IMG/VR virus record: IMGVR_UViG_3300037237_000074
Location: 1-32,598 of that record
Source: a virus
Direction: 5' to 3' (one strand)
DNA length: 32,598 bases
The notes under the pieces were generated by a model that did not search any database, was not told where the DNA came from, and saw only the letters and a list, made by a program, of their open reading frames with translations. Position numbers and translations under genes: made by a program. Of the stretch, positions 2,110 through 23,953 are shown piece after piece (positions within the stretch are counted from its first letter, which is position 1; every line of letters starts with the position of its first letter).

Positions 2110-2757
2110 GTGTCACCAGACATTACAGACGTGTCGCAAGACTCGTCACTAGATCCTGACCGGTGGATCCGGCGCGGAATCTACGCCGGGGTCGCGCTCG
2201 TCGCGGCGTTCGCATTCATCGTCAGCTACAGCCACATCTACGACCTTGGACGGCAGCACGCAGAGTTCGGCATCGCCGACCGGCTGCTGCCGCTGAGCGT
2301 TGACCTGCTCATCGTCGCGGCGACGCTCGTGCTGTGGCTGCAGAGCCGCAGCGGGGCGGAACTGACCGGGCTTGAGCAGAAGCTGCCACGCGGCACGCTG
2401 TGGGGCGGGATTGGCGCCACGGTCGCCGCGAACATCGCCTACGGCCTGCCTCACGGGTGGCTGGCGAGCGTCATCTCCGCATGGCCCGGCGCAGCTTTCG
2501 TCGCCGCTGTCGAACTCGCGATCGTCGCCGTCAAGGCTGGCCGGTTCGGCCTGCAGCCGGGCGCGTCGCCGCAGGCCAGGCCGGTGCCGTCCGATTCCGT
2601 CGGGGCTGCGAAAGCTGCATACGACGCGACAGTGCTGGCCGGCAATCCGCTGTCCCGAAACCAGCTCACCGAGCGGTTCGGCATCACCCGTGCGCAGGCC
2701 GACGAGATCCGCGAGCCCGCCGTCAGCGCATCCCTGAATGGAGGCCCGCCAGCATGA
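2110..2757 (+). CDS. DUF2637 polytopic membrane protein (Spd-like)
   Basis: 215 aa, GTG start at 2110 with AGGAG eight bases upstream. Four hydrophobic segments lie at about residues 24-41, 59-77, 96-112 and 121-140, the DUF2637 arrangement, including LPLSVDLLIVAATLVLWLQ. The C-terminal 60 residues are soluble and contain a helix-turn-helix-like stretch (LSRNQLTERFGITRAQADEI). DUF2637 proteins are found next to the TraB/FtsK-like translocase in AICEs and Streptomyces plasmids, and are thought to help transfer or intramycelial spread. The stop overlaps the translocase start (ATGA), indicating coupled expression. An upstream in-frame extension to 1906 is rejected for lack of a start signal. Confidence 0.8.
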   Translation: MSPDITDVSQDSSLDPDRWIRRGIYAGVALVAAFAFIVSYSHIYDLGRQHAEFGIADRLLPLSVDLLIVAATLVLWLQSRSGAELTGLEQKLPRGTLWGGIGATVAANIAYGLPHGWLASVISAWPGAAFVAAVELAIVAVKAGRFGLQPGASPQARPVPSDSVGAAKAAYDATVLAGNPLSRNQLTERFGITRAQADEIREPAVSASLNGGPPA

Positions 2758-4805
2758 CCACCGACCAGCGTGACCACGACGCCGAAGTGATCGAACTGCA
2801 CCCTCAGACCGAGGCGACGGAAGTTGTCGGCGAGCCCGTCGCCGACGCCGGCCCGCTCGTCCTTGAGGAGCCCGGGACGCGCCGCCAGATCATCCCTGAG
2901 AACTGGCGCCGGGACAGGATCCGGGCGACGGTCGAGCACCATGCAGGACTGCACTGGCACCGTGCGAAGTTCCACGGGGTCCGGGCGCCGATGTACGCGC
3001 TCAAGACGGTGTTCTATGCGTTCGCCGGCGTGATGGTGCTGACCGGGACGCTGATGCGGTGGTGGCACTGGACCGATGGGTGGGTGCTGGAATCGCAGGC
3101 TGTCGCGAAGGGCAACGCGGGGCACGGCGAGGCGATGGCCGCACACAAGCAGGGCATCAAGACGCGGGGCACGCGGGGCCGGATCGTGTTCGTGTGCGGC
3201 GTGCTGGCGCTGCTGCTGCTGATCGCGATGGTGGCGTTCCTGCCGGGCTGGGCTCAGCTGGCGGTCGCGACGGTCGTGTTCGGCGTCCTGGTCTACTACG
3301 GCAAGCCGGACGGCAAGTCGCTGGCTACTGCCGCGGTCGTGCCGCCTAAGTACATGGAGCCGACCCCGGAAGTGATCACGCGGGCTATGGCCAGCCTGCG
3401 GATTCAGGAGATCAACGCGCTGGTCAGGGACGGCGAGCGCCTGGCGTTCGTCACCGACGTTCACCGCGACGGGCCCGGGTGGGGTGTCGAGATCGACCTG
3501 CCTCACGGCGTGACCGCGAAGTCGATCGTCGCCAAGCGTTCCGAACTTGCGTCTGGCCTGCGGCGTCCGCTGTCGGCGACGTGGCCGAAGGGTGTCCCCG
3601 GTGAGCATGAGGGACGCCTCTCACTGTGGATCGGCTTCCAGGATCTCGCCAAGATGAAGGCGCCGGCGTGGCCGCTGCTCAAGGCCGGGCAGGCGGACGT
3701 GTTCGCCGGGCTGCCGTTCGGCACCGACCCGCGTGGCCAGCGGGTTGACGCCGGGCTGTTTGAGGTCAACTGGCTGGTCGGCGCCGCCCCAGGTCAGGGT
3801 AAGACAGCGGCGATCCGCGTGCTGGCCTGCGCCGCCGCGCTGGATCCGCTGGCCGAGATCTGGATTCACGAGCACGCCGGCAAGGGTGACCTTGAGCCGC
3901 TGGCGCAGGTCTGCCACCGCTACGTTTCCGGGCTCGATGACGAGTCGATCGCTTACGCGGCCGAGTCGCTGCGGATGCTGCGGAAGGAACTGGACCGCAG
4001 GTCGGTGCAGTTTAAGAAGATCCCCCGGGTGGACAAGCCAGACGGCAAGGTCACGCGGGACATGGCCGCGAAGCGCAGCCAGCACCTTTACCCGATCGTC
4101 GCGTTCTTTGACGAGGTGCAGAACGTGTTCATGCACCCGGAGTTCGGCGAGAACGCCAAGGCGGACGCGGCCTACATCCTGCGTGTCGGCCGGGCGTACG
4201 GCCTGATTCTGGTGCTGGGCACGCAGCGGCCGGCGGCCGACGCGGTGCCTACCTCGGTCAGCGGCATCGTCACCAACCGTTTCTGCCTCAAGGTGCCCGA
4301 CCAGCCGTCAAACGACCTGGTGCTCGGCACGAGTTCCTACCGGGCCGGATACGACGCGACGGTGTTCCGCGCCAAGACTGACGCCGGGATGGGGTGGCTC
4401 AAGGCCGAGGGTGACCCCCAGATCGTCAAGACGTACTACCTAGACCTGAACGCTACGGAGAAGGTCGCGAAGCGTGCCCGGGGCATCAGGGAGGCGGCCG
4501 GGACGCTGACCGGCTACGCGCTCGGCGAGGCTGGCGAGACGCCCGAGCGGAACTTCCTGCTCGACGTGCTCAACGTCTTCGGCGCCGACGACAAGCTCTG
4601 GTCCGAGACCGTCGCGGCGAGGCTGGCCGAGCGGATCCCGGAGGCGTACGACGCCGTTACCCGGGATTCCGTGGCCAGCCAGCTACGCAAGGCCGGGGTC
4701 GCGGTGAAGGACGTCCGCGAGACCGGCAAGGCGCAGCGGAAGGGCTGCGAGCGGGCCGACGTCGAGAGTGTCGCGGGTGTCGCGGCTACCGGGGGTCGGC
4801 TGTGA
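2754..4805 (+). CDS. TraB/FtsK-SpoIIIE-type DNA translocase
   Basis: 683 aa, ATG at 2754 with GGAGG 8-9 bases upstream. Three transmembrane segments lie at about 80-102, 144-163 and 166-183. The cytoplasmic RecA-like motor has Walker A GAAPGQGKT (343-351), Walker B PIVAFFDE (447-454) and the FtsK-type GTQRP motif (489-493). Residues about 600-662 form a winged-helix-like C-terminus. In Streptomyces plasmids a TraB of this layout forms a hexameric pore and moves double-stranded DNA between mycelia after its winged helix reads short repeats in clt. Host FtsK is less likely because of the short N-terminus and the neighbours. A dense repeat array starts inside the 3' end of this gene and continues downstream, the position of clt in known systems. 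Transfer function is inferred. Confidence 0.85.
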   Translation: MTTDQRDHDAEVIELHPQTEATEVVGEPVADAGPLVLEEPGTRRQIIPENWRRDRIRATVEHHAGLHWHRAKFHGVRAPMYALKTVFYAFAGVMVLTGTLMRWWHWTDGWVLESQAVAKGNAGHGEAMAAHKQGIKTRGTRGRIVFVCGVLALLLLIAMVAFLPGWAQLAVATVVFGVLVYYGKPDGKSLATAAVVPPKYMEPTPEVITRAMASLRIQEINALVRDGERLAFVTDVHRDGPGWGVEIDLPHGVTAKSIVAKRSELASGLRRPLSATWPKGVPGEHEGRLSLWIGFQDLAKMKAPAWPLLKAGQADVFAGLPFGTDPRGQRVDAGLFEVNWLVGAAPGQGKTAAIRVLACAAALDPLAEIWIHEHAGKGDLEPLAQVCHRYVSGLDDESIAYAAESLRMLRKELDRRSVQFKKIPRVDKPDGKVTRDMAAKRSQHLYPIVAFFDEVQNVFMHPEFGENAKADAAYILRVGRAYGLILVLGTQRPAADAVPTSVSGIVTNRFCLKVPDQPSNDLVLGTSSYRAGYDATVFRAKTDAGMGWLKAEGDPQIVKTYYLDLNATEKVAKRARGIREAAGTLTGYALGEAGETPERNFLLDVLNVFGADDKLWSETVAARLAERIPEAYDAVTRDSVASQLRKAGVAVKDVRETGKAQRKGCERADVESVAGVAATGGRL

Positions 4806-4971
4806 CGGGCTGCCTAGGAAGTGAATCCTGCCGGTCGCGTCGCGGTCAGCCGCGACAGCGCGACATCGCAGGTCAGAGCGTCGCGCTCGCTGGCCAGTGT
4901 CGCGGCGATTCGCATAAGCGCAGGTCAGCGAGTGTCGCGGAAGCGCGACAGATCTGCGGGCCAGCGCGACA
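4767..4971. repeat. TGTCGCG repeat cluster, candidate clt/TraB recognition locus
   Basis: The 7-mer TGTCGCG occurs exactly at 4769, 4778, 4898 and 4933, and its complement CGCGACA at 4851, 4859, 4944 and 4965: eight copies in 203 bp. AGTGTCGCGG is repeated exactly at 4767, 4896 and 4931. The first two form a tandem GTGTCGCGG pair. GCGCGACAGAT occurs at 4943 and 4964, and GCAGGTCAG twice. Degenerate copies (GTCGCG) lie at 4834, 4839 and 4880. Most of it lies in the 183-bp gap after the translocase gene. Clusters of 7-8-bp TraB recognition sequences are known at this relative position in Streptomyces plasmids. Confidence 0.8.
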
Positions 4972-6350: not shown

Positions 6351-6763
6351 TGCCTGAGTTCATCCGTCCCAAGCGGGCGATCATCGAGACGGGCGGCGGC
6401 GATTGGGTCGGCGTGCTGGTGACGCTGGTGGTCGGCGCGCTGGTGGTCGGCAGCCTGGTCGTGTTCGTGATGGCTCACGTCGTGCTGCTGGCCTGCTGCC
6501 TGGCAGCTGCCGGCCTGGTGCTCGGCGGGTTCATCGCGTGGTCGCGGTGGATCTCGAGCCCTAAGCGCCTCGCTGAGCTCCGGGCGGCCGAGCCTGCGGA
6601 ACTGCCGAACATGAGTGCCACTCATGTTGCGCTGCCCCGTGGCTGGTCAGCGGCAGTGCCGGCCCGGCGGGCACTGCCTGCGCCGGCCGAGTATCACCTT
6701 CACCTGCACGGCGTCTCACCCGATGAGGCGGCCGAGTTCATCAACCGTAGGGAGCTACCGTGA
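6350..6763 (+). CDS. SpdB-like membrane protein
   Basis: 137 aa, ATG at 6350. A polar N-terminus (MPEFIRPKRAIIETGGGDW) is followed by two adjacent transmembrane helices at about 20-65 (VLVTLVVGALVVGSLVVFVM and LLACCLAAAGLVLGGFIAW), then a soluble region with Pro/Ala-rich linker ending HLHLHGVSPDEAAEFINRRE. This plan resembles proteins of AICE transfer clusters between the translocase and the operon end. Spread function is inferred only from context. Confidence 0.6.
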   Translation: MPEFIRPKRAIIETGGGDWVGVLVTLVVGALVVGSLVVFVMAHVVLLACCLAAAGLVLGGFIAWSRWISSPKRLAELRAAEPAELPNMSATHVALPRGWSAAVPARRALPAPAEYHLHLHGVSPDEAAEFINRRELP

Positions 6764-6945
6764 TCATCGCCGTCATCGTCGTCATCGTCCTGCTGTACCT
6801 GATGTTCCACGTCGGGGCCGGTCACGCCCACTACCGGCACGCCAGAGCCGCTGGCCTCCGCCCTAATTTCTACTGGTCGAGTGTCCGCGGGCCGTACGCC
6901 AGCGTCCGGCTGCCTGGTGGGTTCAGGGTCGGGCACAAGCTCTGA
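6760..6945 (+). CDS. Small single-pass membrane protein
   Basis: 61 aa. GTG at 6760 overlaps the previous stop (GTGA). An N-terminal hydrophobic helix (IIAVIVVIVLLYLMFHVGAG) is followed by a basic, aromatic C-terminus (YRHARAAGLRPNFYWSSVRG). No domain is recognised. It is the last gene of the coupled membrane-protein series; the next gene has its own upstream promoter-like motif. Confidence 0.6.
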   Translation: MIIAVIVVIVLLYLMFHVGAGHAHYRHARAAGLRPNFYWSSVRGPYASVRLPGGFRVGHKL

Positions 6946-6955
6946 ATGCCCCCTC

Positions 6956-6978
6956 AACTTGTCGCACTCAGTGTGGCA
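6956..6978 (+). promoter_or_regulatory. Shared promoter/operator motif, copy 1
   Basis: AACTTGTCGCACTCA (6956-6970), three variable bases, then TGGCA. The same arrangement recurs at 11754-11776, and the core TGTCGCACACA lies at 9487 between the XRE and excisionase genes. It sits 19 bp before the ATG at 6997 with GAGGAG in between. TTGTCG may serve as a -35 element, but no convincing -10 is seen, so an operator is equally possible. Confidence 0.6.
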
Positions 6979-6996
6979 TCATGAGGAGAAGCGCCA

Positions 6997-7335
6997 ATGA
7001 GAGGAACGACGACGATGACTCTGCCCCCCGCTGCCGAGCTGGTCGCCCTGGTCCGCGAGCAGGGTCCGGGTGTGCTCGACCAGTACGCCCCGGAGATCGA
7101 CCAGCTTGCGGACATCCCTGCGATCGCCGGGTACCTCGGCATCCAGCCGCGGACGATCTACCGCGAGCGCGGGCGCAAGCGGGCCGGCGGGCCGCGGTGG
7201 CCTGAGCCTGAGCCGCTGCCCGGCCGGTCGAAACTGTGGAAGTGGCGGACCATCGTCGTGTTCCGCGCCGGGGCGCCGCAGAACGGGACCGCCAGTTGGT
7301 CCCGGCCGGCCGAGGCAGGCGAGCCCAGTGAGTGA
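6997..7335 (+). CDS. HTH DNA-binding protein
   Basis: 112 aa from ATG at 6997, with GAGGAGAAG upstream; ATG at 7015 is a possible alternative. A helix-turn-helix lies near residues 39-60 (ADIPAIAGYLGIQPRTIYRE), followed by a basic segment RGRKRAGGPRWPEPEPLPGR and a beta-like end KLWKWRTIVVFRA. The form is like a MerR/excisionase-type HTH_17, where a small wing reads DNA. It may regulate the operon or act as a recombination directionality factor, though a better Xis candidate exists at 9621. It overlaps the next gene by 8 bp. Confidence 0.65.
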   Translation: MRGTTTMTLPPAAELVALVREQGPGVLDQYAPEIDQLADIPAIAGYLGIQPRTIYRERGRKRAGGPRWPEPEPLPGRSKLWKWRTIVVFRAGAPQNGTASWSRPAEAGEPSE

Positions 7336-7630
7336 GCCAGCCGTTGCCGCGCAGATCCGCGCCGTGCTCGGCGCGGCGCGCAGCCCGATGTCACCGACCG
7401 AGATCCGGGACGCACTCCGGGTCCGGCCGGCTGGCGACGGCCGGACCCGGGGGCACAGGCAGTGGGTGCTCTGGCAGGTGGACGAGTTCAACCCGGCGCT
7501 GACGGACATGCTGGCCGCGGGGGAGATCGTGATCGCAGTGAACTCGACGGGCGACGAGCCGTGGAAGGCTGCGCTGGCCGGCCGGGCCAGTTCCGTCGTG
7601 GTTCCGTCAGACCCCCCGCACAGTCCGTAA
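7328..7630 (+). CDS. Winged-helix-like small protein
   Basis: 100 aa, GTG at 7328. PTEIRDALRVRPAGDGRTR following a short helix (AAQIRAVLGAARSPMS), and a later DMLAAGEIVIAV strand pair, suggest a winged helix. No specific family is recognised. It is the last gene before the candidate attachment region, and its transcript would run toward the integrase terminator from the opposite side. Confidence 0.55.
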   Translation: MSEPAVAAQIRAVLGAARSPMSPTEIRDALRVRPAGDGRTRGHRQWVLWQVDEFNPALTDMLAAGEIVIAVNSTGDEPWKAALAGRASSVVVPSDPPHSP

Positions 7631-7742
7631 CTTTCCAGAGGTATCCAGTGGCGTTGTGCCTGCTAAACCGGCAGGTGCGGGGAGTCGCCCCAGGTAGCCA
7701 AACTGCCTGTCTAAGTTCGCGATGTACTACGACTGTTAGGCA
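7631..7742. other. Candidate attP region beside integrase
   Basis: A non-coding 112 bp between the end of the transfer-type operon and the integrase terminator, on the 3' side of int, the usual location of attP. It contains similar direct repeats TGCCTGCTAA (7657-7666) and TGCCTGTCTAA (7704-7714) and an inverted partial copy TTAGGCA (7736-7742), which could be integrase arm sites. Short dyads CCTGC/GCAGG and GGGG/CCCC are present. I could not fold it as a tRNA or tRNA 3' end, so the core and host target are unknown. Confidence 0.45.
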
Positions 7743-7784
7743 AAAAAGGGCCCCTCACCTGCGCAAACAGGTGAGGGGCCCTTT
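7742..7784 (-). terminator. Strong intrinsic terminator after integrase
   Basis: A perfect 17-bp stem, AAAGGGCCCCTCACCTG (7745-7761) with its complement (7768-7784) and 6-nt loop CGCAAA. Read on the minus strand the hairpin is followed by six T, a textbook intrinsic terminator 10 bp after the integrase stop. It should also insulate the integrase from the plus-strand transcript. Confidence 0.9.
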
Positions 7785-7793
7785 CCAGTTCCG

Positions 7794-8915
7794 TCACAGT
7801 TCCGTCCGGCTCGCGAAAACAGCCTCTAGAACAGCGTTCGTCTGCTCGTCCGTGTCGGGCCACAAGTGCCCGTAGACGTCGAGTGTCGTCTTGGCGCTGG
7901 CGTGCCTCATCCGGGCCTGGACCTTCTTCACGTCGGCCCCGGAAGCGATCAGCAGCGACGCGAGGTAGTGGCGCAGGTCGTGATACCGGAACCCGGCCGG
8001 CAGGCCGTCCACGGTCGCCCTGGCCTTGCGTATGGCCCGTTCGAGCCGCCACGGGCCGACCTGCCTGCCGTCGTCGTCCACCAGCACCCAGTCGCCGGAC
8101 CACTGCGCCGAGTGCGTGATCAGTTCCGTGATCAGCGAGGCGGGGATCGGGACAGCCGTCCGGCTCGTCTCCGACTTGAGCAGTTGCGCCGGGTACTGGA
8201 CGGCCGGGTTGAGCATCCCGGTCACCAGGTCCACGTCGCCGGGCCGCAGCCCGCACGCCTCGGCCAGCCTGAGCCCGCCCATCGCGCCGAGCAGGACCCC
8301 GATCTGCAGGTAGGGAGGCATCGCCCCGTACAGCTGCCAAATCTGCTCTGTAGTGGCGCAGTAGGCCCGCTGGGATCCGCGGCCGGGGGAAGTCTTGCGG
8401 GAACACGGCGACGAGCCACGGAGGCCGTCAGCCACGGCGTCGTTCATGATCTGGCACAACCTGCGGTAGCAGGCGAAGACGTAACTCGGCGCGTAGCCCT
8501 CAACGGTCATGCGGGCCGTCCAGCCCTTCACCTGTGACGGCTTGATCGACGCGACGGTCTTGCCGCCGAACTCTTTCTTGATCTGGGCGATGTGAACCTG
8601 TGCCTGGCGCACCGTGGATGGCCGGCGCGTGCCGTAGCCGGCCAGCCAGACGTCGCACCACTGGCCGACCGTGACCTTCGCTTTGCGCGGGTCCTGGTAG
8701 ACGCCCCGGGCTGCGTCGGTCTCCTGCGCGGCGCCGTACCGCTCGGCGTCGCCCTTCTTCGCGAACGCCTTCGTCGGCTGCTGGCCGCCCGGCATGTTCC
8801 AGACGGCGAGCCAGCGCTTCGCGTCCTTATCGCCGCCCCGGTCAGGATGGCGGGCTGTCTTGCGCTTGGGCCCACGGGTGCCGGACGTGTGCCACAAGTC
8901 CTTGACGTGGCTCAC
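7794..8915 (-). CDS. int: Tyrosine recombinase integrase
   Basis: 373 aa, GTG at 8915 overlapping the stop of the upstream XRE gene (GTGA). The N-terminus has a basic beta segment of the arm-binding type (RWLAVWNMPGGQQPTKAFAK). A SAM-like core-binding domain covers about residues 75-160 (TVGQWCDVWLAGYG onward). The catalytic domain has Arg216 (GGLRLAEACGLR), His312 and Arg315 (HDLR), His338 (MRHAS) and nucleophile Tyr348 (DVYGH), so all key residues are present. It should carry out site-specific integration at attP, likely at 7631-7742. A small upstream frame extension is rejected. It is co-transcribed with the regulator and ends at a strong terminator. Confidence 0.95.
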   Translation of the reverse strand: MSHVKDLWHTSGTRGPKRKTARHPDRGGDKDAKRWLAVWNMPGGQQPTKAFAKKGDAERYGAAQETDAARGVYQDPRKAKVTVGQWCDVWLAGYGTRRPSTVRQAQVHIAQIKKEFGGKTVASIKPSQVKGWTARMTVEGYAPSYVFACYRRLCQIMNDAVADGLRGSSPCSRKTSPGRGSQRAYCATTEQIWQLYGAMPPYLQIGVLLGAMGGLRLAEACGLRPGDVDLVTGMLNPAVQYPAQLLKSETSRTAVPIPASLITELITHSAQWSGDWVLVDDDGRQVGPWRLERAIRKARATVDGLPAGFRYHDLRHYLASLLIASGADVKKVQARMRHASAKTTLDVYGHLWPDTDEQTNAVLEAVFASRTEL

Positions 8916-9478
8916 CCGAACACCTTCTCCGTGTTGATCGCCGCCGTCATGGACTGCTCGAGCATGGTCCGCAACTGCCACGGCGTGACGCCTGCCGTCA
9001 GCGCCCGGTAGATCAGCGACCGCATCTCGCCGGCGAACTCAAGGCCCGGCCCGTCTAGCGACAACTGGAAACGGTGCGGCCGGTTCTCCATGACGAACTC
9101 GGCCGTGTCGTGACCCGTGCCGGGGGCGAGTGGTTGCTCGCCCGTCGCCCACGCCCACATCCGGCCGAGTGACTCCTTCATGTCCGGCGTCAGCGGCTCG
9201 GTATGGCTGAGCGACGTCATCGGGGTCATGGGCCCGGGGAGCAGCAGCAGGTTCGGGGAGACGTCGAGCACGGCAGCGACGGCGACGAGCTCGTCAGCGT
9301 TCAGCGGGCGCTCGCCGGACTCGACGCGGATCAGGCCCGTGTCCAGGATCGGCTGACCCATGCCCGCTAGCTGGCGGGACAGTTCGCGCAGGCTCAGCCC
9401 GCGCCTCTGGCGGATTCGTTTCATGTTGGCCGCGACCCGTTTCGTCGTCGGGCCGACCACCTTCTTCGTAGCTGGCAT
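8912..9478 (-). CDS. XRE-family HTH regulator, probable immunity repressor
   Basis: 188 aa from ATG at 9478. Residues about 14-80 are an XRE helix-turn-helix (RVAANMKRIRQRRGLSLREL, then an insertion, GLIRVESGERPLNADELVAV and LDVSPNLLLLP). The C-terminal about 100 residues are soluble and have no peptidase signature. No Shine-Dalgarno precedes the ATG, so translation may be leaderless. It is divergent from the excisionase and in one operon with the integrase, the layout of a lysogeny switch. The repressor role is inferred. The motif TGTCGCACACA in its own promoter, also found in similar form at 6960 and 11758, is a candidate binding site. Confidence 0.85.
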   Translation of the reverse strand: MPATKKVVGPTTKRVAANMKRIRQRRGLSLRELSRQLAGMGQPILDTGLIRVESGERPLNADELVAVAAVLDVSPNLLLLPGPMTPMTSLSHTEPLTPDMKESLGRMWAWATGEQPLAPGTGHDTAEFVMENRPHRFQLSLDGPGLEFAGEMRSLIYRALTAGVTPWQLRTMLEQSMTAAINTEKVFG

Positions 9479-9593
9479 AACCGCAGTGTCGCACACAAGG
9501 CGACTGCGGACTATCGCTTGACGCTGCGTAACCCATCTGGTAAACCTGCTGCTGCACATCCAAAACAGCAGGCGCACATGTAACGTAGGAAAC
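9479..9593. promoter_or_regulatory. Lysogeny switch intergenic region
   Basis: This divergent region contains TGTCGCACACA (9487-9497, part of the imperfect dyad GTGTCGCACAC), a possible rightward promoter TTGACG (9518-9523) with TAAACC (9541-9546) at 17-bp spacing, and the inverted repeat CCTGCTG (9545-9551)/CAGCAGG (9566-9572). The last overlaps the proposed -10, fitting an operator controlling excisionase and early genes. Confidence 0.6.
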
Positions 9594-9620
9594 ATGCGCC
9601 ACGTTCGGGGAGGCAGCATC

Positions 9621-9827
9621 TTGCCAGTCAAGGAACGCGACGAACTCATGACCACCGAGGAAGTCTCCGCAGCGCTCAAGGTGCCCGTGCGCACGCTGCA
9701 CGACTGGCGCCTCAAGGGGAAGGGCCCCAAGGGCGCCAAGATCGGCCGCGGGCTGCGCTACTGGCGCAGCGAGGTAGACGCATGGGTCGCCGGCCAGTTC
9801 GCCGCCGAGCAGACGGGCCAGAACTGA
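9621..9827 (+). CDS. xis: Excisionase-like HTH protein
   Basis: 68 aa if started at TTG 9621, which has GGGGAGG eight bases upstream. ATG at 9594 (spacing too short) and ATG at 9648 (typical MTTEEV start, distant site) are alternatives. MTTEEVSAALKVPVRTLHDW, then GKGPKGAKIGRGLRYWRSEVDAWV, is the HTH_17/MerR-like excisionase fold with its basic wing. Such proteins bend attachment-site DNA and direct the integrase to excision. Its place divergent from the regulator-integrase operon fits this. A purely regulatory role cannot be excluded. Confidence 0.8.
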   Translation: MPVKERDELMTTEEVSAALKVPVRTLHDWRLKGKGPKGAKIGRGLRYWRSEVDAWVAGQFAAEQTGQN

Positions 9828-9828
9828 T

Positions 9829-10332
9829 GTGGCCCGCTGCGACATCCCGCGAGCGCAGTGCCTCAACTGGCACATCCGCGACTGCCTGCGGGACCCCAAA
9901 GAGTCAGGAGACCGACTCGGCGGCGTCGTCGCTAGCTACCGGGCTCTATGCCCCAGCCATCCCGACAGCGAGCACAGTCTCTCGGTCAGCGTCGGCGAGA
10001 AAGCCCGCATCGTCTGGCACTGCTACACCAAAGACATCCACGGCAAGCTGCTCTGCAGTCCGCTGGCCATTCGCGCCGCTCTCATCCGCGACGGATGCGA
10101 GGCCGACTGCCTCGGGATGCCGAAGGATGACGAGCAAGACCTCATCGACCAGTTGGCCAAGCTCTACGCGGCCGGCCTGCATCACTCTGAACTGCGCTGG
10201 CGGATTTTCTCACTCGTTCAGGGATTCGGAGGTGAACTGCCCCCCAAGGGTCGCTACCTCGGGGGGAGACGGAAGTTCGCTGCCGATGCCGGGGTCGCTC
10301 AACCTGACCTGTACCGAGCTAAGAACCGATGA
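9829..10332 (+). CDS. Primase-type (CHC2-like) zinc protein without catalytic domain
   Basis: 167 aa, GTG at 9829, two bases after the excisionase stop; an out-of-frame ATG overlaps at 9827. The stretch Cys41-Pro-Ser-His44, then DSEHSLSVSV and IVWHCY (Cys65), resembles the DNA-primase CHC2 zinc domain, although the second CxxC pair is degenerate. The N-terminus has further cysteines (4, 11, 19). The C-terminus ends in a helix-turn-helix-like FAADAGVAQPDLYRAKNR. No Toprim or Prim-Pol catalytic domain follows. It could recognise single-stranded or origin DNA in replication. The 18-bp repeats begin 73 bp downstream, which is suggestive of an origin. Confidence 0.55.
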   Translation: MARCDIPRAQCLNWHIRDCLRDPKESGDRLGGVVASYRALCPSHPDSEHSLSVSVGEKARIVWHCYTKDIHGKLLCSPLAIRAALIRDGCEADCLGMPKDDEQDLIDQLAKLYAAGLHHSELRWRIFSLVQGFGGELPPKGRYLGGRRKFAADAGVAQPDLYRAKNR

Positions 10333-10404
10333 CACCAGTACCTACCGCGTAAAAAGAGAGGCTGTCAAGTCGTGCAGGTCAGGCCCATATTCGGCCCCTG
10401 AAAA

Positions 10405-10463
10405 AGTGCTACGTCATGTAGCAGTGCTACGTCATGTAGCAGTCGAGTGCTACGTCATGTTGC
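10405..10463. repeat. Three 18-bp dyad repeats (iteron-like)
   Basis: AGTGCTACGTCATGTAGC is repeated exactly and in tandem at 10405 and 10423. A third copy at 10446 has one change (T for A at position 16), after a 5-bp spacer. Each copy holds the inverted arms GCTAC and GTAGC. The preceding bases include A-runs (GTAAAAAGAGAG, TGAAAAAG). Located between a primase-zinc-like gene and the next open frame, they may be replication iterons or a triple operator. Confidence 0.85.
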
Positions 10464-10482
10464 ACTCTGGCGGGTGGTCGGC

Positions 10483-10833
10483 ATGACCGACGACGCTCAG
10501 GTCTTGATCGCAGCCCGCAAGCGCTACGCCGTCGAGCAACTGATCGGCGGGCCGGCCCAGGTGCCCGTGACGGTCATCACGCCCGAGGTCGAGCGCGCCG
10601 CTCGCCAGTGGCACGCCTGCTCGCAACTGATACACCGCCGCCCGTGGCGCAGCGTGGCGCTGTGGAGGATGTGCCTGCAGGCCATCTTTGACAGCGACGG
10701 GTACGTGACCGGCGACCCCGCCGTGCTACTGCCCCGTGACCGGGCCGGCTTCATGGCGCTCGCCAAGCGGACGCCGGACGTAGACCGCGGCCGGGCAGCG
10801 TTCTTGTTCCGTCAGCGGGCAGGTGCCCGATGA
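10483..10833 (+). CDS. Hypothetical early protein
   Basis: 116 aa, ATG at 10483 with GGGTGG just upstream; a longer frame would start inside the 18-bp repeats. It is basic and mostly helical (MTDDAQVLIAARKRYAVEQL, then VERAARQWHACSQLIHRRPW). No domain I can name. It is directly downstream of the iteron-like repeats and overlaps the next gene (ATGA), so it may belong to a replication or early regulatory unit controlled through them. Confidence 0.6.
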   Translation: MTDDAQVLIAARKRYAVEQLIGGPAQVPVTVITPEVERAARQWHACSQLIHRRPWRSVALWRMCLQAIFDSDGYVTGDPAVLLPRDRAGFMALAKRTPDVDRGRAAFLFRQRAGAR

Positions 10834-11387
10834 CGGCCGGGCTGGCCGATGGGCGCCGGGCTCGTGATGCCGGGATGGCCGCCGCGGAGTCGCGCCGGGC
10901 CGCCGAGCAGGACAAGGCCGTCATCGACGCCGCTATCGAGTACCTCGCCGGCACGGGTGAGGAGTTCAGCGCCAACGACGTGCGGCCCCTGCTGCCCAGT
11001 GTCGCGGGCTCGCTGATCGGCACCCGTTTCCTGGCCGCGTCAAGGTCGGGGCTGATCGAGCGCGCCGGGACGACGCAGGCCGACCACGAGGAAGGCCACG
11101 CCCGTCTGCTGTCTACGTGGCGCCGGGCGAGCGGAAGCAGCCTTCCGGCCGGAAGCACAGTTCCGCACGGAAGCAGGCTTCCGGCCGGTGGGGTGCAGCC
11201 CATTGCACCGCGGGTGAGCCCGGAGGCTGAGCAGGCCATGCGCAGGGCTGAGTGCGCCCTGGCTGGCGGCAGAGGTGCCACCGGGCTGAGGAACACGACC
11301 GAGGCCCGCGCACTCATCAGGCAACTGCTGGACGCCCTTACCGACGCGACCGGGGCCGAGCCCGCATCCACCGACAGCCTGTTCTGA
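10830..11387 (+). CDS. Winged-helix-like phage protein with hexapeptide repeats
   Basis: 185 aa, ATG at 10830 (ATGA overlap). Residues about 30-95 (EFSANDVRPLLPSVAGSLIG, then AASRSGLIERAGTTQADHEE and GHARLLSTW) look like the small phage winged-helix proteins in which a recognition helix is followed by a wing. A linker follows, made of three six-residue units GSSLPA, GSTVPH and GSRLPA encoded by perfectly spaced 18-bp repeats (11133-11186). The C-terminus is helical and ends TDSLF. Function unknown; probably an early DNA-binding protein. Confidence 0.6.
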   Translation: MTAGLADGRRARDAGMAAAESRRAAEQDKAVIDAAIEYLAGTGEEFSANDVRPLLPSVAGSLIGTRFLAASRSGLIERAGTTQADHEEGHARLLSTWRRASGSSLPAGSTVPHGSRLPAGGVQPIAPRVSPEAEQAMRRAECALAGGRGATGLRNTTEARALIRQLLDALTDATGAEPASTDSLF

Positions 11388-11400
11388 GAGGAAGAACACC

Positions 11401-11655
11401 GTGAGCGCACGTACCCACATGGCCGACATGGATCTGTACGAGGAAGCCTGCCAGCAGGCCGGCCGGGTCATCCCCCCCGCAAGGAACGCCAACAATGCCA
11501 GCTGGCCGGTCATCAAGATCTACCACCGCGCCTGCCGCGAGATGGAAGCGCACCCCAGGCACGCCGGCCCGATCCGCTGCCTTGCCGTGCTGGACATGGC
11601 CCGCACCGTCGAGCGCATCAACCACGCCAACCGCCCGGCCGACACCCTGCTGTAA
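11401..11655 (+). CDS. Small hypothetical early protein
   Basis: 84 aa, GTG at 11401 with GAGAGGAAG about 8 bases upstream. The sequence is helical (ADMDLYEEACQQAGRVIPPA, then WPVIKIYHRACREMEAHPRH and LDMARTVERINHAN) with no signal peptide or metal motif. No recognised family. Its stop codon lies within the first of three tandem TAACGCCGTTAC repeats. Confidence 0.6.
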   Translation: MSARTHMADMDLYEEACQQAGRVIPPARNANNASWPVIKIYHRACREMEAHPRHAGPIRCLAVLDMARTVERINHANRPADTLL

Positions 11656-11741
11656 CGCCGTTACTAACGCCGTTACTAACGCCGTTACCCCCGCAAGATC
11701 TGCGCCCCCGCAGAAGTTGCGCCCCCGCAGATATTGCGGGG
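11653..11741. repeat. 12-bp x3 and 17-bp x3 repeat cluster with hairpin
   Basis: TAACGCCGTTAC occurs three times in perfect tandem (11653, 11665, 11677); each contains the dyad TAACG-C-CGTTA. Then come 17-bp units TTACCCCCGCAAGATCT (11685, diverged), GCGCCCCCGCAGAAGTT (11702) and GCGCCCCCGCAGATATT (11719). The last forms a hairpin CCCCGCA (11723-11729)/TGCGGGG (11735-11741). It lies between two early transcription units, directly before copy 2 of the shared promoter motif. Confidence 0.85.
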
Positions 11742-11753
11742 TCCACCACCCGT

Positions 11754-11776
11754 AACTTGTCGCACTCAAGATGGCA
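11754..11776 (+). promoter_or_regulatory. Shared promoter/operator motif, copy 2
   Basis: AACTTGTCGCACTCA (11754-11768), three variable bases, then TGGCA: identical to the site at 6956 apart from the spacer. It is followed after a few bases by TGCTAGACT, a possible -10 region, and the ATG at 11798. The duplication of an intergenic sequence ahead of two unrelated genes indicates a common regulator or sigma factor. Confidence 0.6.
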
Positions 11777-11797
11777 AGTGATGCTAGACTTGCCAAC

Positions 11798-11932
11798 ATG
11801 AACACGACAACTTCTGAGCCCCGGACCGAGCCCCAGACCGACCCCGCCGACTACGTGCCCAGCGAGGAAGACGAGCAGTTCGACAGCCTCATGGCCGCCT
11901 ACTTCCCGGCCGGCGCGACGCCCCCGTTCTAA
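11798..11932 (+). CDS. Small acidic hypothetical protein
   Basis: 44 aa, ATG at 11798: MNTTTSEPRTEPQTDPADYV then an acidic EEDEQF stretch, ending AYFPAGATPPF. No Shine-Dalgarno is evident, so the message may be leaderless from the motif at 11754. It is probably disordered. Acidic micro-proteins of this kind can act as inhibitors or DNA mimics, but nothing here proves that. A good AGGAG follows for the next gene. Confidence 0.55.
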   Translation: MNTTTSEPRTEPQTDPADYVPSEEDEQFDSLMAAYFPAGATPPF

Positions 11933-12797: not shown

Positions 12798-13445
12798 TTA
12801 GCTTGCCTGCCGTTCCTGCCAGGCCCGTTGCCGCCGCCGCGCCCCGACGATGCTGGTGTCGCGGATCGCTGGCCGCCCCAGCCGCGCATCGCGCCCCCAC
12901 TGCGGCGCGGGTGGCTCCGGGTAGTACCAGTGCCGCCGCGCCGCCCTGCGTGCCACTGAGAGCCGCTGCTTGAACGCTGCCAGGCTGATACCGAGCGCCA
13001 GCGCTGACGCCTCGTAGGTGCCGAACTCGCCGAGCACAGACAGCACTTCATAGTCGGTGTCGTGCAGTCGTGCGGCCACCTGCCAGACGGCGACGCGCTC
13101 GACCAGGTTCTCAACCCATTCAGGCTCGCCGCGGTCGCCTGCGTGCCAGTAGCGGGCGAAGCCGTGAATCATGCCGTGCGCGGGCCCGCGGTCCCGGTGA
13201 TGGTCGATGCCCCAGCCGCGCACAAGCTGCGCCGCCTCACGGTTGATAGCCTGCCGCGCCCCGTTCATCAGGTCCCCGATGCCCGGCGCGGCCTCGGCCG
13301 AGTAGAGGATCTCGACGAGCGCGCAGGCAGCGATGTCTTGCGCCTCGTCTAGCTCGACGGCCGTCGAGTACGTGCAGCGGGCAGCCTTGCGCGCCAGGGC
13401 GGCCAGACGGTCAACCGTCCAGCCGTGCGGCAGCTCGCCGTCCAC
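12798..13445 (-). CDS. Sigma-70-like / HTH protein, last gene of late operon
   Basis: 215 aa. The N-terminal part (DEAQDIAACALVEILYSAEA, with DLMNGARQAINREAAQLV) is helical like a sigma region-2 module. Residues about 115-170 (RVAVWQVAARLHDTDYEVLS and then YEASALALGISLAAFKQRLS followed by VARRAARR) match the region-4 helix-turn-helix pattern of ECF-type sigma factors. The C-terminus is basic (GARRRQRAWQERQAS). It might direct RNA polymerase to phage promoters or act as a DNA-binding remnant. Its position, last in the structural operon, is unusual for an early activator. Confidence 0.55.
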   Translation of the reverse strand: MDGELPHGWTVDRLAALARKAARCTYSTAVELDEAQDIAACALVEILYSAEAAPGIGDLMNGARQAINREAAQLVRGWGIDHHRDRGPAHGMIHGFARYWHAGDRGEPEWVENLVERVAVWQVAARLHDTDYEVLSVLGEFGTYEASALALGISLAAFKQRLSVARRAARRHWYYPEPPAPQWGRDARLGRPAIRDTSIVGARRRQRAWQERQAS

Positions 13446-19942: not shown

Positions 19943-22900
19943 TTAGCGCCCGAAGGCCGTCTGCACGCTGCCGCCGCCCTTGGTCCTGACCCACTTGCGG
20001 ATAGCGGTCACCATGAACTGCTCGAACTCGCTCGCCCCGGCCGACGAAACCTCGAGCTGCACCGGGCCACCCCCGGCCGCAGCGCCGACCGGCTCAGGGC
20101 GGCCCGTGCCGTTGTAGGCCAGGGACACGCCCGTCGGCAGCCATCCGCCCCGGTCATAGGACCCGATCGACAGTTCCGACTGCCACGCACCGATCGGGCC
20201 GCCGTACTTCTGCTGCATGTAGTTGGCCATCCAGGTGATCTGCGCGCCCGGCTGGCCGCTGTTCGCGTTCCGGTCACCCGCGAGCGAGAGGCCCCACCCG
20301 CCGTATTCGTTGCCGAGCGACCCGCCGCCACCGGACACGCCGTGACCGAGCGCCTGAGCGATGCCGAGCGCGCCGGACCCCGCGTTCTGAATGGTGCTGC
20401 TCCAGCCCGACTCGCGCATGGCGACGTTGTTCCAGTCGGTCCAGTTCTGGCCAGACGCCCACTTCGGGTACATCTTCTTGGCCAGCGCCGCGTTCGCGGA
20501 TGGAGCGCCGCCGCCAGGTGTGCCGCCACTGCCGCCCGAGCTGGCCCCAGCACCCATGATCTGCTTCCAGGTGCCCTTCACCATGTCCGCGATCATCTTC
20601 GCGGGCAGCGTCGCGATCACAGACGCCCAGTGCCCGCCAGCGCCGCCGTTGCCGCCCGGCATGATGCTCGACAGCGCGTTACTGAACGCCACCTCGTTGC
20701 CCGTCGCCGCGGCGAGCGTCATCTTCGCCACCGCGCCCGCGTCGCCGACGATCCCCCCGGCAGCGAAGCCAGGCACGCCCATCGCCCCGAGCAGCGGCGC
20801 GTACTTCTGCGTCCGCTGCTTGTCCACGACCGCTTCGCCGTCCTCAAGCAGCGCCAGGTTCCGGTCGCCGCCACCGAAGCCAGCCAGCCGGCCACCCGTC
20901 GAGAGCGAGATAGGCGACACGCTCGGCAGGTCCAGCGAGCCGAGGCCCAGCGCGCCCATCACGTCGTCCCAGAGGCGCCGGATGCCGCCCATGTAGACGT
21001 CATTGATCACGAAGTTGATCGGGCTGCCCATGATCTTTTCAAGCGCGCCCCAGCCCGACTTCGCCTCGCCCTGGATGTGGCCCCACACGGTGCCCATCGC
21101 CGAGCGCAGGTCGCCGAGTTTGCCCGTTACCCAGTTGTAAGCGTTCTTTACCGGGTTAATGATGTCGTTGTAGACCAGGCCCCAGGCCGCCGTGGCGTCG
21201 GACTTGACCGTGCCCCAGATGCCCTTGATGGCGCCCTGCAGGTCGCCGACCTTGGACTTCACGTCGTTGTAAGCGTTCTTTATCGGCGTGAAGATGTCGT
21301 TATAGGTCGCGTTCCATGCGGCTACGGCATCAGACTTGATCGTGTCCCAGATGCTTTTAATGGCCGACTGCAGATCGCCAATCTTGCTTTTAACGTCGTT
21401 ATAGGCGTTCTTTATCGGCGTGAGAATGTCGTTATAGACGACCTTCCATGCGTCCTCGGTCAGCGACTTGATCTCGCCCCACACGTCGCTGACCGCGGAC
21501 TTCATGTCGTCCCAGACCTTGCCCGCGGTGCTCTTGAGGTCGTCCCAGATACCGGACAGCGCCGACTTGATCGCGTTCCAGATCTGCACGCCCACGGCCT
21601 TGACCGCGTTCCAGGCGCCCTTCCAGTTGCCCGTCATCAGGTCGAGCAGGACCTTAAAGTCAGCAGAGATAACGTCCCAGGCGATCTTCAGCGCCGCTTT
21701 GATGACGTCCCAGACGGCCTTCGCGACGCCCTCCATGACGTCGAACTCGGCCTTCCAGATGTCGCCGATCACCTTAAGCGCGGTCTGCAGCGGCGACGGC
21801 AGGTCGTGGAACAGGCCCGTGACGAACTTCACCGCGTCGTCGGTCCAGTTCTTGATGTCCGTCCAGATCTGCTGCCAGTGGGTGCCGAGGAAGCCGACAG
21901 CGGCGATGATCGCGATGATCAGCGCCGGGATCGGGTTCATCGCGATAGCGATAGCGGCCAGGATCGGGATGAGCAGGTGATTCTGCGACAGCCACTCGAT
22001 CGTCTTGGCGATCAGGCCGGCCAGCATCGCGATCAGCGGCGTCGCGATCTTGAGGATGGTGAGCAGGCCGGACGACAGTGCGTCGATGAGGATGGTTGAC
22101 AGCTGGCCGACTGCCTGGATCAGTACCGGGAACGCCGGGGCCAGGCCCTTGATCAGCCCGTTGATCAGCGCCGCGATCGGCTTAGCGAGGCTCTCAAGCG
22201 CGTCGCCGAGGATCGCGAACACGCCCGTGTTCTCAAGCGTGTTGAACACGGACGAGAGAGTTTTGCCGAGGATCGCGAAGCTGGGAGCCAGGCCCTTGAG
22301 CAGCTGGCCCACCGACCCGAGCACGCCCGCCAGGTCGCCGAGCACCGCGCCTGCCAGGTCGGCGAGCACCTTGCCGACCGGGATCAGGACCGGCAGCACG
22401 CCGTCGATGGCCTTGCCGAACGACGCGACCGCCGGCGCTAGTGCCGTGGCGAACATCTCGCCGAGCTTCCCCAGGATGGGGAAGATCGTGTTCACCAGGT
22501 CCAGGATGGCTTTCAGCACCGTGGCGGACGGTCCCTCCGCCGCGGCGAAGTCGTGGAACATCGAGCCGAGCGACTTGCCCAGGTCGCCGAACGCCCCGGC
22601 GAGCGTGGCGAATACCGGCTTGGCGCCCTTGATCATGGACAGGAATCCGGGCAGCGCCCCGCTGACCAGCGCCTCGAATCCCTTGAGGAGCGGCTGAATC
22701 AGCGGCGCGACGCCGGCGAACACGGCCTTGAACTCAGGCTCTAGTCCCTTGAGGTAGCCGCCGATCTGCGACATGGCCTGTTCCATCGGCTTCGCCAGCG
22801 GCTCGACGGCCGACTTGAAGATGCCCTGGATCTTGGTCATCGTGGACTGCACGTCGGTCGCGAAGCCCTTGTTTGTCTTTTCAAGGATCATGAACCCGGC

Positions 22901-23953
22901 GCCGAGCACGCCGAGACTGGACCCGACAGACACGATCGCGGGTATCACCGCGAGCAGCGCCCCGCCGATTCCCACGATGCTGGCCTGCATCCCGGACAGC
23001 CCGGCGATGCCCGGCATCGCGCCCCCGGCGAGGTTCCCGCCCGCCGAGGCCGCACTGCCGCCCGCCGAGGCGGCAGCGCCGGCCAGGCCGCCGCCCTTAC
23101 CGCCGCCGCCGAACGACGGCAGCCTGAACTTTGACAGCACACTCTTGAGTGCCGACGTGAACCCGCCGCCGTAGCTGGTACCGGCCGCCTGGCCGTCCTT
23201 CTGCGCTGCGCCGCTGCTGCTGCTGCTGAACAGGCCGCCGAGCAGCGACGACACTTTGCTGCCGGACAGGTTCGCGGCGAACCCCGACATGAAGCCCTTG
23301 CCGGCGTCCTTACCGGACTGCTCGCCCGCCGCGACGTCCGGCCCGGACCCGGCGCCGCCGAACAGCCCGCCGAGTATCGAGCCGATCTGGCTGGACACGC
23401 CTGAGAAGCCCTGACGCAGCCCGGACGAGAACCCCTTGGCCGTGTCCTCACCCGAGGCCTTGGCGTCGCTCACGGTGCGTTCTGACGCCCCGGAGTTGCC
23501 GAACAGGCCGGCCATGACCCCGGACAGCTGGCCGCCGACCGACGCGAACCCGTTGTTCAGGCCCTTGGCGAAGCCCTGCGCGATGTTGTTGCCCTGCTTC
23601 GCGGCGTCCTGGGTGACCGTGTTCCCCGCCGAGCCGAACAGCTTGTTCCCGCCCGACGTGCCGAACAGGCCCGACAGCAGCCCGGAACCTAGCGACGTCT
23701 GAAACTTCTGCAGCATCCCGCGGGCCAGGCCGGTGCCGACCTGCTGCCCGGCCCGGTTCGCGTCGCTGGCCGTCGAGCCGCCGCCCTTGCCGGACAGCTC
23801 GCCGAGCAGCCCGCCGCCCGTCGCCTTGTTGAAGTTCCCGCTGAACCCCTTGCCTGCGTCCGTCCCGGCTGCCTCGAACGAGTTCTTTATCCCCTTGAGC
23901 GCCTTCGTCGCCTCGTCGTTCGTGCGGATCGTGATCTCGACCAGGTTCGTCAT
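19943..23953 (-). CDS. Tape measure protein with lytic transglycosylase domain
   Basis: 1336 aa, ATG at 23953 with GGAGGG upstream. The first 300 residues hold diverged repeats with GxxxAxGFxxGLxxGF and GLFG motifs. Hydrophobic stretches (ASIVGIGGALLAVIPAIVSV; IPILAAIAIAMNPIPALIIA) follow, then long helical regions and three 44-residue repeats. Residues about 1145-1290 are a soluble lytic transglycosylase-like domain with catalytic-type Glu1181 (VAMRESGW) and GALGIAQ. It spans the tail lumen, sets tail length (very roughly 0.15 nm per residue, so about 200 nm) and may open peptidoglycan during injection. It sits directly after the tail chaperones, as usual in siphophages. Confidence 0.93.
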   Translation of the reverse strand: MTNLVEITIRTNDEATKALKGIKNSFEAAGTDAGKGFSGNFNKATGGGLLGELSGKGGGSTASDANRAGQQVGTGLARGMLQKFQTSLGSGLLSGLFGTSGGNKLFGSAGNTVTQDAAKQGNNIAQGFAKGLNNGFASVGGQLSGVMAGLFGNSGASERTVSDAKASGEDTAKGFSSGLRQGFSGVSSQIGSILGGLFGGAGSGPDVAAGEQSGKDAGKGFMSGFAANLSGSKVSSLLGGLFSSSSSGAAQKDGQAAGTSYGGGFTSALKSVLSKFRLPSFGGGGKGGGLAGAAASAGGSAASAGGNLAGGAMPGIAGLSGMQASIVGIGGALLAVIPAIVSVGSSLGVLGAGFMILEKTNKGFATDVQSTMTKIQGIFKSAVEPLAKPMEQAMSQIGGYLKGLEPEFKAVFAGVAPLIQPLLKGFEALVSGALPGFLSMIKGAKPVFATLAGAFGDLGKSLGSMFHDFAAAEGPSATVLKAILDLVNTIFPILGKLGEMFATALAPAVASFGKAIDGVLPVLIPVGKVLADLAGAVLGDLAGVLGSVGQLLKGLAPSFAILGKTLSSVFNTLENTGVFAILGDALESLAKPIAALINGLIKGLAPAFPVLIQAVGQLSTILIDALSSGLLTILKIATPLIAMLAGLIAKTIEWLSQNHLLIPILAAIAIAMNPIPALIIAIIAAVGFLGTHWQQIWTDIKNWTDDAVKFVTGLFHDLPSPLQTALKVIGDIWKAEFDVMEGVAKAVWDVIKAALKIAWDVISADFKVLLDLMTGNWKGAWNAVKAVGVQIWNAIKSALSGIWDDLKSTAGKVWDDMKSAVSDVWGEIKSLTEDAWKVVYNDILTPIKNAYNDVKSKIGDLQSAIKSIWDTIKSDAVAAWNATYNDIFTPIKNAYNDVKSKVGDLQGAIKGIWGTVKSDATAAWGLVYNDIINPVKNAYNWVTGKLGDLRSAMGTVWGHIQGEAKSGWGALEKIMGSPINFVINDVYMGGIRRLWDDVMGALGLGSLDLPSVSPISLSTGGRLAGFGGGDRNLALLEDGEAVVDKQRTQKYAPLLGAMGVPGFAAGGIVGDAGAVAKMTLAAATGNEVAFSNALSSIMPGGNGGAGGHWASVIATLPAKMIADMVKGTWKQIMGAGASSGGSGGTPGGGAPSANAALAKKMYPKWASGQNWTDWNNVAMRESGWSSTIQNAGSGALGIAQALGHGVSGGGGSLGNEYGGWGLSLAGDRNANSGQPGAQITWMANYMQQKYGGPIGAWQSELSIGSYDRGGWLPTGVSLAYNGTGRPEPVGAAAGGGPVQLEVSSAGASEFEQFMVTAIRKWVRTKGGGSVQTAFGR
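21041..21436 (-). repeat. Three 132-bp (44-aa) tandem repeats in the tape measure gene
   Basis: Units run 21436-21305, 21304-21173 and 21172-21041. Each starts YNDI followed by xxPxKNAYN and contains GDLxxAxxxxW. The units differ at many synonymous sites. Tape measure proteins commonly vary tail length by gain or loss of such units. The frames TAYNDVK and ATYND use TAT/TTT-ending codons more often than the surrounding gene. Confidence 0.8.

Follow-up and report, generated by a model that had tools for sequence, protein, structure and literature searches.

A repeated intergenic motif in an actinobacterial phage and its possible link to the XRE regulator of the lysogeny switch

The window analyzed here, i.e., the whole of the IMG/VR record IMGVR_UViG_3300037237_000074 (32,598 bases), is a phage of soil-type actinobacteria in which the motif AACTTGTCGCACTCA-N3-TGGCA was found at 6956-6978 (S1) and at 11754-11776 (S3). 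The second copy forms one arm of an inverted repeat whose other arm, S3', lies over the start codon of gene 11798, and a weaker site (S2) is located beside the XRE regulator gene of the lysogeny switch. The initial annotation had proposed that one regulator, perhaps the XRE protein, acts at 6956, 9487, and 11754. On sequence comparison, a common phage-specific site at 6956 and 11754/11791, in control regions of early genes, is well supported, the link of 9487 to it is suggestive only, and XRE is a plausible binder. The features are listed in Table 1.

Table 1. Coordinates of the motif copies and of the genes discussed in the text
Feature	Position	Strand	Sequence, location or basis of assignment
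S1	6956..6978	+	AACTTGTCGCACTCA-GTG-TGGCA; 51-bp gap between genes 6760 and 6997
S2 (weak)	9487..9505	+	TGTCGCACACAAGGCGACT, within CCGCAGTGTCGCACACAAGGCGACTGCGG; 9-27 bp 5' of the xre start codon
S3	11754..11776	+	AACTTGTCGCACTCA-AGA-TGGCA; left arm of the inverted repeat
S3'	11791..11813	-	AAGTTGTCGTGTTCATGTTGGCA (16/20); right arm of the inverted repeat, over ATG 11798 and the next codons
Inverted repeat, 60 bp	11754..11813		two 26-nt arms (20/26 complementary) around 8 nt
FtsK/TraB-like translocase (traB)	2748-4805		phrog_1358
GntR-type regulator	1288-1530
Putative HTH DNA-binding protein, 112 aa, 3' of S1	6997..7335	+	phrog_597, E 1.3e-4; weak HTH_23
Tyrosine integrase (int)	7794..8924	-	PF00589, phrog_1
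XRE (HTH_3) regulator, 188 aa (xre)	8912..9478	-	Pfam HTH_3, E 2.9e-5; phrog_11503, E 8e-14; homologues adjoining int/xis
Excisionase-like HTH protein (xis), divergent from xre	9594..9827	+	HTH_17, phrog_66
Acidic 44-aa protein, start within the S3/S3' repeat	11798..11932	+	sequence, translation

Motif copies, the inverted repeat and their distribution

A scan of the record for TGTCGCACWCA returned three exact matches (6960, 9487, and 11758), each of them plus-strand and outside coding sequence, and a control scan with the pattern reversed was empty. The core at 9487 and the intergenic position of all three copies were thus confirmed, and exact matches likewise bore out the initial annotation's longer motif with TGGCA at 6956 and 11754. 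Of the 42 direct 23-mer pairs in the window that agree at 20 or more positions, S1/S3 was the only one with both members intergenic and not of low complexity. In Markov versions of the window, the number of pairs at this level of agreement was 0-7 window-wide (mean ∼3), and when this was scaled to the 2,478 intergenic bases of the 32,598, ∼0.02 pairs were expected with both members intergenic, a figure which the post-hoc choice among possible repeats weakens without removing it. The S1/S3 pair is beyond chance. Both copies begin 41-44 nt 5' of an ATG (6997 and 11798) and are oriented with rightward transcription, S3' is reversed, and S2 opposes xre. The inner 19-mer of S1, TGTCGCACTCAGTGTGGCA (6960-6978), is an imperfect dyad. 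A consensus sigma-70 scan recognized no promoter at the sites, S1 included, and no counterpart of the -10 box of S3 was present at the same offset in S1.

S3', a degenerate minus-strand copy missed by the initial annotation, was the third-best match in the window, the next best reaching 14 of 20 positions. The inverted repeat reads AACTTGTCGCACTCAAGATGGCAAGT GATGCTAG ACTTGCCAACATGAACACGACAACTT, with GATGCTAG as its center, and its single-strand DNA fold had a z of -3.5. Enclosed by it is a -10-like hexamer, TAGACT (11785-11790), the -10 form in actinobacteria being TAnnnT. Because this hexamer ends 7 nt before the ATG and gene 11798 has no Shine-Dalgarno sequence, the gene is probably leaderless. 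On direct reading, three codons located in the right arm or immediately 3' of it (ACA, ACT, and TCT) have A or T as the third base, whereas those in the rest of the gene almost always end in G or C, which suggests that the DNA itself is constrained there. Relatives have ∼1.8 dyads with 26-nt arms of such quality per 32.6 kb; the special feature of the S3/S3' dyad is its coincidence with the repeated unit and not its size. No match to the dyad region (86 bp) was found in a blast search of phages and plasmids.

Two adjoining repeat arrays were observed just 5' of S3 (11653-11741), namely three copies of TAACGCCGTTAC (11653-11688) and three units of ∼17 nt resembling CCCCCGCAGATATTGCG (11688-11741). 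They include a 16-nt inverted repeat (94%), and a replication origin or further operators are possible.

At up to two mismatches, the motif was found in one of 396 phylum genomes and in none of 121 order genomes (517 sampled), and the reversed control pattern was commoner than the motif in the same host-group genomes. Given this rarity or absence, the motif is taken to be phage-specific and a phage protein is expected as its binder; judged by sequence, the sites belong to the phage of the window or its very close kin. The motif was not found in the traB relatives or the XRE relatives. A scan of viral contigs gave nine matches, mostly in AT-richer or unrelated contigs and at a rate compatible with chance, none with the full motif; a scan of viral contigs for the degenerate 26-bp form gave none. 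The gene preceding S1 (6760-6945) is kept near traB in loci L017 and L018, and the genes that follow differ in L017, so that the position marked by S1 is the edge of a module and not a conserved transfer gene. The initial annotation's link to distal genes of a transfer operon is therefore doubtful, the genes after the 6956 site not being conserved in traB relatives.

Genes and other repeats of the window

The structural genes are directed leftward, with the tape measure gene at 19943-23953. No near match to the first 25 kb was found among 50,697 annotated phages. The traB product was 38-40% identical to FtsK-annotated genes on actinobacterial plasmids. The nearest relative found, L097 (IMGVR_UViG_3300028800_001007, 33.3 kb), has traB (60%), the GntR gene, gene 12798, the integrase, and a tail gene in common with the window, and actinobacterial phages bearing traB appear to form a group. 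Gene 12798 (12798-13445) heads the leftward genes and encodes a protein of 215 aa with a relative (28-29%) in L097; it matched no Pfam or PHROG family and no sigma family. In a low-confidence structure model (pLDDT 48, too poor for a fold search), its C-terminal helices look, by eye, like an HTH or sigma region 4. Family searches with the 44-aa protein of gene 11798 found no family.

Of the 15 copies of the heptamer CGCGACA/TGTCGCG in the window, eight are clustered at 4769-4971, on both sides of the traB stop codon. In 74% of 154 traB loci, a stretch of 300 bp at the 3' end of traB ranked in the top 5% of its locus for a repeated heptamer, and the heptamer was specific to the locus: CGCGACA also in L019 and L100, CGCTACC in L097 and L101, CGCAACA in L099 and L102, CCTCTAG in Nonomuraea, and CCGCTAG in Micromonospora. 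In plasmid pWTY27, the clt comprises 16 bp of traA and the 159 bp that follow, and the TraB protein of pSVH1 is reported to recognize 8-bp motifs present as repeats (PMC3583192). The heptamer cluster of the window is in the corresponding place and is clt-like, with locus-specific heptamers as would be expected of TraB recognition sequences. The core of the S sites, TGTCGCAC, has a hexamer in common with the traB-end heptamer, which is probably an accident. Other repeats were observed at 10405-10467, a control region 5' of gene 10483 with its own repeat (three copies of AGTGCTACGTCATGTAGCA, each nearly palindromic), and at 935-1000, in the gap 5' of the leftward genes 210-838, where the 11-nt TGCTTCGGTCT is repeated four to five times in tandem.

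The weak site, candidate binding proteins and their possible action

S2 has only the 11-mer core in common with S1 and S3, and on the full motif it scored 12 of 20, as did more than 40 other places. When seen as a dyad (TGTCGC-N7-half site reversed) it fits better, and with a symmetric matrix trained on S1, S3, and S3' it ranked first among the places left in the window. By chance, 0.03-0.06 such places would be expected in the intergenic DNA as a whole and 0.0015-0.003 in the gap of 115 bp between xre and xis. In an unsupervised comparison S2 was not recovered (14 of 19 vs a null of 13-14), and by eye it has a longer inverted repeat of its own. Its membership with S1 and S3/S3' is no more than suggested.

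The leading candidate for binding the motif is the 188-aa XRE protein, which is made plausible by the conserved int-xre-xis switch of its family and by the position of S2, 9-27 bp 5' of the xre start codon. XRE homologues were present in 41 of the 345 genomes of the order searched, with at most 48% identity in whole-genome searches. The family adjoins a window-related integrase and/or excisionase in 15 of 20 actinobacterial loci (L190-L209), which makes the assignment of XRE as the switch regulator a good one; int-xre-xis is a recurrent, conserved switch. Searches of viral contigs and phages with XRE, gene 6997, and gene 7328 gave no useful close relatives, and no annotated phage record matched the XRE protein. 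By eye, many XRE relatives seem to be leaderless and to have a divergently oriented TTGAC element; in some, dyads are located close to the xre start or ∼70 bp 5' of it. The window motif was absent from the upstream regions of the homologues, and no recurrence of the switch dyads of the relatives was seen in the rest of their loci (5-20 kb); family-wide distal operators, or a family-wide regulon, are therefore not supported. The segment PILDTGLIRVE, at the expected place of the recognition helix, differs from that of all 20 relatives, and the operators of the relatives therefore need not match those of the window. The structure model of XRE, from a single sequence, was too poor for a fold search (pLDDT 44). 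The main rival is the 112-aa protein of gene 6997, a putative binder with a weak HTH assignment. The GntR regulator was rejected, its own 24-bp promoter gap containing no match to the motif.

We give close to an even chance to S1, S3, and S3' being operators of one phage-coded repressor of early genes, with XRE as the most likely binder, also on S2. At S3/S3', the two units, in inverted orientation, enclose the -10 box and extend over the start codon, and for this reason a bound protein would block the promoter of gene 11798. At S1, which follows the traB-linked genes, it would block transcription into genes 6997-7328, and could act either on read-through from the traB-linked genes, like a stoperator of L5, or on an undetected promoter. 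S2, weaker, more symmetric, and just 5' of the xre start, would serve autoregulation of XRE. In favor of the operator reading are the small expected number of intergenic pairs, the third copy lying exactly in inverted orientation next to the second, the placement of both strong sites shortly 5' of start codons, the codon choice at the right arm, the rank of S2 with a matrix trained without it, the switch position of the XRE family, and the rarity or absence of the motif in host-group genomes. It has against it that there are four sites only, that S2 was missed by the unsupervised comparison, that no promoter was recognized at S1, that the -10 box of S3 has no equivalent there, and that the XRE relatives do not have the motif and their switch dyads do not recur at a distance.

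The same placements could be explained if the 112-aa protein bound S1, S3, and S3' and controlled both 6997 (its own gene) and 11798; the 9487 core would then be a coincidence within a separate XRE operator, CCGCAGTGTCGCACACAAGGCGACTGCGG. S1 lies within the leader of gene 6997, whose product resembles phage DNA-binding proteins (phrog_597), and both the low full-motif score and the longer inverted repeat of S2 agree with such a coincidence; since the HTH assignment is weak and S2 still ranks first among the remaining places in the symmetric scan, we regard this as unlikely but credible. Quite unlikely, in our judgment, is a promoter element or activator site through which a phage sigma-like factor or activator, e.g., the 215-aa protein, turns on genes 6997 and 11798. 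The shared strand and nearly equal start-codon distances of S1 and S3 would suit it, as would AACTT in the motif, which resembles the -35 of ECF promoters, and the HTH-like multi-helix segment predicted with low confidence at the C-terminal end of gene 12798. However, the would-be spacer is conserved, no common -10 occurs at a fixed spacing, the reverse copy S3' is left unexplained, and gene 12798 has no sigma family match.

The S3/S3' repeat might instead serve in recombination or as a DNA structure, or might mask the start codon as a hairpin in the RNA, with S1 as a relic copy of one arm. Its strong single-strand fold is in keeping with this, and TGGCAAGT-GATGCTAG-ACTTGCCA provides perfect 8-bp arms around an 8-bp core, a geometry like that of tyrosine-recombinase sites; but the integrase gene is 4 kb away, a partner arm is missing at S1, and a hairpin would be absent from the mRNA if transcription starts at the ATG, which makes this explanation rather improbable. 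A chance resemblance or a non-functional duplicated fragment is also improbable: the pair was picked post hoc among many repeats and dyads of this arm length are not rare in relatives, but the expected number of intergenic pairs is small and the dyad coincides exactly with the repeated unit. Host regulators are indeed used by phages, and the motif could be the site of one borrowed by the phage, which the counts in host-group genomes largely refute and which we consider highly improbable.

Returning to the operator reading, its widest form would have one XRE repressor of a plasmid-phage hybrid tie together the lysogeny switch, an early gene with a 60-bp start-spanning double operator, and the genes behind a plasmid-type traB block, partly via a promoterless stoperator-like site. 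This seems unlikely. If the operator reading is right, a handful of short sites between genes would reveal the immunity specificity of the phage, and a transfer block of plasmid type would be seen next to control by a phage repressor. The sites offer a small, clean candidate regulon in the poorly known actinobacterial phages with FtsK/TraB translocases.

Comparison with known repressor systems

In mycobacteriophage L5 (cluster A), more than 20 operator/stoperator sites of 13 bp are distributed genome-wide, in promoter regions and short intergenic gaps, and the L5 repressor (183 aa) binds as a monomer with two DNA-binding domains (PMC9283540). The window resembles L5 in its repeated, asymmetric-looking sites in promoter regions or short gaps (S1, S2, and S3 being intergenic and S3' lying over a start codon), in the position of S1 in a short gap within a rightward gene run, and in the length of the HTH repressor (188 aa for XRE). 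It differs from L5 in having at most four places in a 32.6-kb record, which may be incomplete, and in sites that are longer than the 13-mers and have dyad character. No cluster A repressor structure was among the PDB matches of XRE, and no relation between the two proteins was detected.

As in the lambda immunity region, the HTH repressor gene is divergent from early genes and a dyad is located just 5' of its own start; the lambda operators are clustered in two neighboring control regions, whereas the sites of the window are 2-5 kb apart. In the actinobacterial phage phiC31, one repressor acts at many inverted-repeat sites spread over the early region. The window likewise has inverted-repeat sites across its early region, in far smaller number than phiC31, and an HTH repressor in an int-xre-xis switch, as in temperate phages of the dispersed-dyad-operator type, is present. 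From these comparisons, the arrangement would most simply be of a known general kind, the dispersed operators of one repressor, with a new operator sequence.
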